DNA from: Nitrospira sp.
GTDB lineage: Bacteria > Nitrospirota > Nitrospiria > Nitrospirales > Nitrospiraceae
Length of the DNA: 64,000 nt
NCBI GenBank assembly: GCA_018242665.1
Contig: JAFEBL010000014.1
Location: 1-64,000, forward strand
Direction of reading: 5' to 3'
A program made the position numbers and the translations under genes. The notes under the pieces are model-generated. The model was given only the letters and a program-made list of their open reading frames with translations, did not search any database and was not told the origin of the DNA. Position 1 is the stretch's first letter; every line of letters begins with the position of its first letter. Positions 44,283-46,643 of this stretch are shown here, in pieces.

Positions 44283-46643
44283 TCAGGCCATCGAAACCGG
44301 GTCCACATCAATCTCGAATCGCAGCCCGCCCCTTCGCGACGCCCGTTCCAGTTCCTCACGGCTATGCACCACGGCAGCCCTTACGACCTTCGAGGGATCA
44401 GATTTCACCAGGATCTGCCAACAATACCGCCCTCGGACCATGGCATGGGGCGCCGGGGATGGGCCAAGAATCAGAAATGGGCCCCACTCCCCCGTCGCTC
44501 CGATTGAGGTCGCCGGCACGGCCGCACCAGGACCACGGGCCTTTTGCGCGCCATGGACGGATGACATCTGCCCTCGCAAGAGCGCTGCCCATCGATGAGC
44601 GGCTTGCTCCACCGCCGTCTCCACGGTTCCGGATACATTCAGCTTGATGAGACAGGCCCACGGTGGATACTGGAGCAGTTGCCGAAAGGCTTGCTCTTGC
44701 GCCAGAAACAGTTCTTGATTGCCGGACGCCAGCGCCAGAACCGCGTGGTGGTCGGGAAGCCGCGTCTGCACGAACAACCGGCCGCCGGCGCGGGCCGGCA
44801 GGGTCAATTCAGCCGCATCTACAAGATCATGATACATTCGTTCTGCCGAACGGAAATCGGGAATATGCAGGCCGGCATCGGCGTCCGGTACCGCCACGAA
44901 CGCCGCCTTCACATGCAACGCCAACCGAAACAACGTCTGCGTGCCGATGACGATATCGAGCTCACCCGCATCGAGGAGCCGGCCGAAGGCCCGAGCGTCC
45001 TCCGCGCGACGGATCGTCTCACCATCCACGCGCCCCACACGAGCCAGGGGAAATAGACGCCGAACCGCCTCTTCGATCCGTTCCGTGCCGGACCCGACCG
45101 GTTCCAATTTGAGGGATTGGCAGCGTGCGCAATGATCCGGCACAGGTTTGGCGCGCCCACAGTAATGGCACCGCATCTGATTTCTACGCCTGAAAAAGGT
45201 CAAGGCGACGCTACACACATCGCATTGCGGCATCGCCCCACAATCCCCGCAATGCAGCACGCTGGCAAATCCTTTACGATTGAGAAACAGTACGACCAAC
45301 GAGCGCCGCTGGAGAGCCTCACGCATACCTTCGCAGAGGGGAGGCGTCAGCACGGTTCCCGTCAAGAAGTCCCTGCCATATGCCTTGAGGTCGATCACCT
45401 GAGTTTCAGGATCTTCCCCCCGATCACGATACACGCAGGTCGCCATCAGACCCTGCTGAACCGCCGCCCAACTTTCCAAGGAGGGATGGTTCGACGCCAG
45501 CACCAATACCGCACTCTCGCGGCAGGCCCGTTCATGCGCGACCTCCCGAGCATGGTACCGTGGTGCCTGCTCTTCTTTGAGGGACGTGTCATCCTCTCCT
45601 TCCACCCACACCAGTCCCAGCCGGTCGAGGGGAGCGAACACCGCCATGCGGGTGCCAACAAGGATGGAAGCCGAGCCCAACTGGGCCGCCTGCCAGACCG
45701 CCTCACGTTCTTTCCCGGGGAGTCCGCTGTGCAGAAGCAGAGGCCGTTCGCCGGCCGCCACAAAAATTCCCGCTAACCGGGTGGCATTCTCGACATCCCC
45801 CGTGATGACCAAAACTCGCCGTCCCCGGCGGAGGGCGGCCTGTGCGGCCTGCACAAGGCACCAATGTCTCGTGGCACGTTCGCCGTCCAACAACAGAGCC
45901 GACCAGACATGGCGAGCCAACGCCTTGTCGATCACCATGGGCCACGAACGCGCCTCAGGTGGCGGGGACGGCAACGGCCCACCGGATTCCGCCAGTGGAA
46001 GCGCAGACTCCATGGTCGGCAATTGCTGTGGACTCATGCGAATCGCTGCCGGAAGGACTGCCTCATCCCGTCGCAGGATGAGTCCCTTCTTGATGAGGAC
46101 CCGCAACGCCGCCATCGCTCCGGACTTGTCGCCTTGCAGCAGACTTCGTTCCAGCACGCCCTTGGGACGACGGCGAAGGCTCGCGAGAATGCGCATTTCG
46201 ATCTCACCCATCCCATCAACCGGGGAAGTGGAGTCCAGGCCTTGCGCTATCGGTAGGTATCGAACCTGAGGGCGAGGTGATTGATCGATGGGAGGCAACA
46301 CGAGTTTGAGACATTGTCCCCAGGGTGCGGCATATCGCTCCGCCACCCACTGGCTCAACTCGATCTGCGCGGATGTCAGTAGATGGGCTGAGGCCGTTTC
46401 ACAGGAACGGAGCGATTTGAGTCCCGTCGCGGGCGCCTCCAGCGGCGGCTGCTGATGAAGCGCAATGACCACGCCCGGCACATCCCGGGTCCCGAACGGC
46501 ACAATGACAGTTTGTCCGATGACAATGTGTCTCCGGAATTCTGCCGGAACAGCATAGGTAAAAGCTCGATGAAGCCGGCGAGGCACTACCACATCGACAT
46601 AGTTCGGGGAAGGTGCCGCCGCCTGCACAGGGTATTCGCGCAT
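44283..46643 (-). CDS. priA: PriA-like primosomal protein without ATPase motifs (786 aa)
   Basis: The ATG at 46643 gives MREYPVQAAAPSPNYVDVVV; the frame stays open 465 bases upstream but overlaps the next gene. The 3'-DNA-binding domain (about 15-115) includes FTYAVPAEF. All eight zinc cysteines are present (C465, C468, C474, C477, C492, C495, C505, C508), as are GTERIEEAVRRLFP and the PDADAGLHIPDFRSAER region. Walker A, normally GxTGSGKT, reads LLLDGERATRHWCL at 249-262. The DEEH box reads VEGEDDTS at 347-354. The arginine motif VI (GRAGR) reads ELTLPARAGG. The protein is therefore probably not a helicase but may still recognise stalled forks and recruit primosome parts. Confidence 0.9.
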   Translation of the reverse strand: MREYPVQAAAPSPNYVDVVVPRRLHRAFTYAVPAEFRRHIVIGQTVIVPFGTRDVPGVVIALHQQPPLEAPATGLKSLRSCETASAHLLTSAQIELSQWVAERYAAPWGQCLKLVLPPIDQSPRPQVRYLPIAQGLDSTSPVDGMGEIEMRILASLRRRPKGVLERSLLQGDKSGAMAALRVLIKKGLILRRDEAVLPAAIRMSPQQLPTMESALPLAESGGPLPSPPPEARSWPMVIDKALARHVWSALLLDGERATRHWCLVQAAQAALRRGRRVLVITGDVENATRLAGIFVAAGERPLLLHSGLPGKEREAVWQAAQLGSASILVGTRMAVFAPLDRLGLVWVEGEDDTSLKEEQAPRYHAREVAHERACRESAVLVLASNHPSLESWAAVQQGLMATCVYRDRGEDPETQVIDLKAYGRDFLTGTVLTPPLCEGMREALQRRSLVVLFLNRKGFASVLHCGDCGAMPQCDVCSVALTFFRRRNQMRCHYCGRAKPVPDHCARCQSLKLEPVGSGTERIEEAVRRLFPLARVGRVDGETIRRAEDARAFGRLLDAGELDIVIGTQTLFRLALHVKAAFVAVPDADAGLHIPDFRSAERMYHDLVDAAELTLPARAGGRLFVQTRLPDHHAVLALASGNQELFLAQEQAFRQLLQYPPWACLIKLNVSGTVETAVEQAAHRWAALLRGQMSSVHGAQKARGPGAAVPATSIGATGEWGPFLILGPSPAPHAMVRGRYCWQILVKSDPSKVVRAAVVHSREELERASRRGGLRFEIDVDPVSMA

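Follow-up and report, generated by a model that had tools for sequence, protein, structure and literature searches.

A priA-like gene without helicase motor

The window (the whole stretch of 64,000 nucleotides of Nitrospira sp. DNA that was analysed) carries at positions 44283-46643 a priA-like open reading frame encoding a protein of 786 aa, P0001. For this locus the coordinates of the original prediction stood and the strand had to be specified: the gene lies on the minus strand, with its ATG at 46643 and its stop codon ending at 44283. P0001 passed the NCBIfam model for priA (TIGR00595; 364.6 bits vs. a cut-off of 230.35), without reaching the stricter PRK05580 sub-models (best 405 of 813 bits), and its phmmer matches in PDB were PriA chains only (five distinct sequences, best E 1.2e-69).

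Via Pfam, PriA_3primeBD, Zn_ribbon_PriA and PriA_C were recognised in P0001, and the scan found no DEAD or ResIII domain. The same scan matched DEAD, ResIII and Helicase_C, besides the PriA domains just named, in all three motor-intact PriA proteins of the phylum that were submitted to it (L068, L073 and L076) and found neither DEAD nor ResIII in three further motor-less ones (L096, L033 and L062). In the motor-less proteins a weak match to Helicase_C fell on the first lobe instead of the second, indicating how strongly the lobes have diverged.

Three parts of PriA are thus retained on the minus strand: i) the 3'-DNA-binding domain (3'BD; residues 17-117, 46293-46595; PF17764, 77.5 bits); ii) the cysteine-rich region (CRR; 45108-45263; PF18319), with the zinc cysteines C465, C468, C474, C477, C492, C495, C505 and C508, marked by conservation and dN/dS as well; iii) the C-terminal domain (CTD; residues 661-782, 44298-44663; PF18074, 53.7 bits). 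The linker and winged-helix region, so named by homology (residues 119-245, 45909-46289), is the most variable part by conservation and by regional dN/dS, and has helices in the structure model. The eight zinc cysteines were complete in every row counted: 27/27 from the genus, 41/41 from the rest of the order, 28/28 from clade B (the motor-less rows from the other families of the phylum) and 93/93 motor-intact ones. Profiles, domains and alignments therefore bear out the original prediction of a PriA that has lost its helicase motifs and kept its zinc sites and DNA-binding domain. P0001 passes the PriA profile and lacks SF2 motifs I, II, III, V and VI, so that it counts as an orthologue of PriA and not as a PriA helicase.

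Replacement of the helicase motifs

Residues at the motif sites were counted in 27 genus rows, 41 further rows from the order, 28 clade-B rows, 19 motor-intact rows from the phylum and 74 motor-intact rows from elsewhere, including E. coli. L029 (which starts after the P-loop) and L030 (an N-terminal fragment) were excluded from trees, conservation, dN/dS and column counts, and the fragments L050 and L114 from trees, conservation and column counts; L067 (family f8) was not placed in the motor-less groups for conservation and column counts, while L197, apparently a repeat of L076, was kept there as a separate row.

The site of Walker A (motif I; residues 250-263, 45855-45896, minus strand) reads LLLDGERATRHWCL where the PriA norm is GVTGSGKTEVY. 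Alignment, column counts and the structure model agreed on this replacement: the loop is one residue shorter than in E. coli PriA in 65/65 aligned order rows, and the positions of E. coli G229, K230 and T231 are all replaced. The column of the P-loop lysine holds R in 25/27 genus and 34/41 further order rows and E in 23/28 clade-B rows, compared with K in all motor-intact rows (19/19 from the phylum and 74/74 elsewhere).

By alignment and column counts, the four remaining motifs are changed as well, all on the minus strand. At the DEEH box (motif II; residues 347-354, 45582-45605) DEEHDSS has become VEGEDDTS, with D to E, the catalytic E to G (in 27/27 genus rows) and H to D. Motif III (residues 383-390, 45474-45497), GSATPxLE in motor-intact PriA, reads ASNHPSLE: GSATP has become ASNHP, with His at the Thr position in 27/27 genus and 34/41 other order rows. 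In motif V (GTQTLFRLALHV; residues 567-578, 44910-44945) GTQ is kept and AKGxD is lost (GTQMLAKG to GTQTLFRL). The site of motif VI (residues 609-621, 44781-44819) reads DAAELTLPARAGG where PriA has QVAGRAGRAGKQG, i.e., DAAELTLPAR against the QVAGRAGRAG of E. coli, so that both arginines are lost: R584 (E. coli numbering) is L in 27/27 genus and 36/41 further order rows, and R587 is P in 27/27 and 24/41 respectively, whereas motor-intact rows have R at both (18/19 from the phylum, 74/74 elsewhere).

Thus the alterations of Walker A and the DEEH box named in the original prediction were found as described, and those of motif III and of the end of motif V came in addition. For motif VI it had given ARAGG instead of GRAGR; the loss itself held, with the columns off by some positions. 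Furthermore, no alternative alignment restored the motifs: phmmer against PDB, MAFFT with 196 relatives and Foldseek placed the degenerate segments at the motif sites.

In 56/65 order rows arginine takes the place of the P-loop lysine, even though no loop is left around it. It occurs there also in Deinococcus-Thermus, according to the available text of PMC4504706, so that this arginine may be functional in its own right.

A probable fork-recognising pseudohelicase

P0001 is very probably a pseudohelicase: it would recognise forks and help to reload DnaB without unwinding. It is the sole PriA found in its genome. Judging from the sequence and the model, it would neither bind nor hydrolyse ATP; a role in replication restart is suggested by orthology. 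As proposed here, P0001 would bind abandoned forks and D-loops via the 3'BD, two empty RecA-like lobes, the zinc domain and the CTD, and the single-stranded DNA of the lagging strand would be held in a pore of CRR, HD2 and CTD, as described for E. coli PriA. DnaB would then be recruited, probably with DciA, and the lagging strand left un-unwound. At forks with a duplex lagging strand, either a further helicase such as RecG would have to act or this route of restart would be closed.

The genome (4.06 Mb in 57 contigs, 99.93% complete) encodes DnaB, DciA, RecG and two UvrD-type helicases. DciA is named as the probable partner because neither PriC nor a full DnaC-like loader was found in this genome: the IstB/DnaC profile gave weak partial matches only, one of them in a 450-aa frame that is taken, by its length, to be DnaA. 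With these RecG and UvrD-type helicases present, the two options of the original prediction, loading only or unwinding by another helicase, are not separable by sequence. DciA lies ~8 kb from the probable DnaA gene (G000:C7:38730-38987 and G000:C7:46758-47060), reminiscent of the dnaA-dciA region of mycobacteria, which use DciA (available text of PMC5720831; DciA is also covered in that of PMC9825169). DciA as the explanation of motor loss was rejected: 282 of the 295 phylum genomes have it, whichever kind of PriA they carry, so that its presence does not follow the loss.

The structure model (pLDDT 88.9, pTM 0.89), built from a 63-row alignment that took 62 of the 80 additionally fetched PriA loci, has the PriA fold. 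Its nine best Foldseek matches were PriA structures (E 1.5e-38 to 2.6e-53), and in place of a P-loop the strand 248-254 passes almost straight into the helix 256-272. The first RecA-like lobe still folds in the model and keeps the conserved H305, G330, R332, F336, P338, E350, R366 and R372; a new role for this lobe is possible.

One alternative is that P0001 has left replication restart altogether and serves as a DNA-binding scaffold elsewhere, for example in repair signalling or chromosome maintenance, its motor being useless there. The heavy change in both motor lobes, and the His and Arg newly conserved at the sites of motif III and the P-loop lysine, would suit such a departure. On the other hand, most positions conserved at ≥95% in the genus and the order carry the residue commonest in motor-intact PriA: Y30, P33, G43 and P49 of the 3'BD, GTRxxxFxP, E350, YHAR, NRxG, the eight cysteines, the GT of motif V, DFRxxE, and YPP and LGP of the C-terminal part. 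Moreover, P0001 is the only PriA found in the genome, and the motor-less PriA of D. radiodurans still binds forks and DnaB (PMC4504706, available text). We therefore regard the scaffold as improbable. P0001 keeps what the assembly function would need and lacks what unwinding requires.

Even less probable, in our estimate, is a weak or regulated helicase that uses ATP through a rewritten site. The well-folded RecA-like lobes of the model, the retained E322 and the retained parts of motif V speak for it; the shortened P-loop with all three of its key residues replaced, the loss of the catalytic Glu and the loss of both motif VI arginines speak against it, as does the report that K to R alone abolishes both ATPase and helicase activity in E. 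coli PriA (PMC4504706, in its available part).

The median dN/dS was 0.186 over 215 genus pairs (dS 0.1-1.5). Among the 12 closest pairs, dN/dS was 0-0.15 in the CRR, 0.05-0.27 in residues 513-632 (second lobe) and 0.22-0.61 in the linker. Thus the gene is under purifying selection and not decaying. A second PriA was searched for in the same genome and not found: the next profile match covered only 81 aligned residues (E=0.016), and the DNA pattern of the PriA P-loop had no match in this genome or in the other order members searched. An artefact, be it a sequencing or assembly error in the 57-contig assembly or a decaying second copy beside an intact one, is ruled out by the orthologues and has practically no probability left: the gene is under this selection, no second PriA was among the matches, and identical losses occur in independent genomes, of which several consist of a single contig. 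With neither a second intact priA nor Walker motifs in another alignment turning up, a helicase-deficient PriA, as originally proposed, is the best reading.

Relation to known PriA proteins

A PriA-like protein that has lost Walker A and B, as P0001 has, is the kind of pseudohelicase described from D. radiodurans. According to the available text of PMC4504706, D. radiodurans PriA has no ATPase and no unwinding activity and binds single-stranded DNA, forks and DnaB; the Walker A and B consensus is lost with the rest kept, and the P-loop lysine has become arginine. In that text D. radiodurans has neither a clear priB nor a clear dnaT, which we count as a further likeness, and the DciA profile also matches the Deinobacterium and Thermus controls. 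However, P0001 belongs to another phylum, and its changes go further: it has lost the whole P-loop (with a one-residue deletion), and with it the catalytic Glu, motif III, the last part of motif V and the two arginines of motif VI.

P0001 resembles the PriA of E. coli and Klebsiella (4nl4, 6dgd and 8fak) in domain order, eight cysteines and fold, the best five Foldseek matches to PriA having E 1e-48 to 1e-53 at 24-28% identity. It differs in that E. coli PriA has an active motor and the partners PriB, DnaT and DnaC. From the available parts of the sources, PriA-PriB restart in vivo does not depend on the ATPase/helicase activity of E. coli PriA, and K230A variants served in a DnaB-loading assay (PMC10175261); a duplex lagging strand is the case in which the motor is put to use (PMC13377028); and a linker motif docks on the helicase domain (PMC8323898).

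For Nitrospirota, no report of PriA motor loss was found in the titles and abstract beginnings of papers on PriA with Nitrospira, pseudohelicase, actinobacteria or mycobacteria. The PriA proteins of actinobacteria are not known to carry detectable helicase motifs. Against the NCBIfam PRK14873 models, which we take to be those of actinobacterial PriA, P0001 scored at most 159.4 bits (cut-offs 812-1147), compared with 405 bits for the PRK05580 models; by profile score it therefore falls outside that group. The trees and alignments below hold no actinobacterial or Deinococcus PriA rows, and a plasmid search for a pseudohelicase outgroup gave none among the 15 of 71 records listed.

Thus the kind of protein is known from Deinococcus-Thermus, and what looks new is the lineage together with apparently repeated loss within one phylum. 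A phylum with motor-intact and motor-less PriA side by side, apparent repeated losses and a possible intermediate offers natural comparisons: what fork structures or partners accompany motor loss, and which motor-lobe residues hold DNA rather than hydrolyse ATP. This bears on the question of why the PriA motor, dispensable for E. coli, is kept by almost every bacterium. Annotations of Nitrospira PriA should avoid the term helicase.

Spread and number of motor losses in Nitrospirota

The gene was found in 29/29 genus genomes searched, and the P-loop was absent in 28/28 that cover its site; in the remaining one (L029) the frame starts after the P-loop, and motifs II and VI are lost. All PriA proteins of the order that cover the P-loop site lack it. 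Among the 80 additional PriA loci, 6/6 from Nitrospira's order (L123-L128) were without motor and 73/73 from other phyla had it, as had L197, a Nitrospirae record; with E. coli included, P-loop-less PriA was found in 0/74 from other phyla. Loss of the PriA motor is ancient and order-wide in Nitrospira's order.

Within Nitrospira's class, direct alignment showed the motor to be absent from the order (families f1, f2 and f3) and from f8, while six families keep it. Elsewhere in the phylum it is absent from 13 sampled families (f15, f21, f23, f25-f31, f33, f35 and f38). The motor is present by direct alignment in f4, f5, f7, f9, f10, f12, f14, f16, f20, f32, f34 and f39, and, judged solely by the P-loop pattern, in f6, f13, f17, f18, f19, f22, f24 and f36. 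The pattern was found in 54/295 phylum genomes, a figure not convertible to a count of motor-less genomes since intact variants in f14 and f20 were missed. PriA was not found in the single f11 genome. In five other genomes (G130, G271, G192, G254 and G257; 92-99% complete) the PriA profile matched other helicases only, with no PriA, either through missing contigs or through true absence.

The main tree was built with a mixture model on 49 of 197 aligned rows, motif columns removed, and motor state was defined by the P-loop alone (L028, L054 and L055 being scored as keeping part of motif II). In it, the order and f8 formed one group (99/93) and the remaining motor-less families another (100/99), the latter adjoining the motor-intact f32, f34 and f39 (91/90). 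As the two groups stand apart, with the second beside motor-intact families, two changes are implied. The replacement residues fit two losses, since the groups differ in R vs. E at the P-loop lysine and in E vs. L/M/T at the motif II aspartate. A forced single motor-less clade was 29 log-likelihood units worse (AU p=0.076); thus a single origin is disfavoured, though not formally rejected. FastTree, run on almost the full set of rows, joined the motor-less ones in one clade when every column was used and split them into two when the motif columns were removed; its weak deep branches were the reason for using the mixture-model tree on chosen rows. In the MAFFT alignment and FastTrees, L123, L124, L125 and L197 were separate rows, although they apparently repeat L014, L015, L022 and L076.

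Family f37, whose PriA is apparently decaying, may show a third loss in progress: L090 (G219) keeps the P-loop and DEEQ and has lost the motif VI arginines, while L205 (G291, another genus) keeps DEEQ, has lost the P-loop and carries an in-frame stop in the linker, which for L205 may instead be an assembly fault. Taken together, we consider it an evenly balanced proposition that motor loss is a recurrent end state in Nitrospirota, reached independently at least two times (in the order with f8, and in the 13 sampled families) with f37 part-way, and that with a DciA-type loader selection appears to keep fork recognition alone.

Family f20 (G055, G046 and G038) has a motor-intact PriA with a GxTGSGKTR P-loop. 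In the tree, G055 and G046 fall among other phyla and have a long branch, for which transfer or fast evolution is possible.
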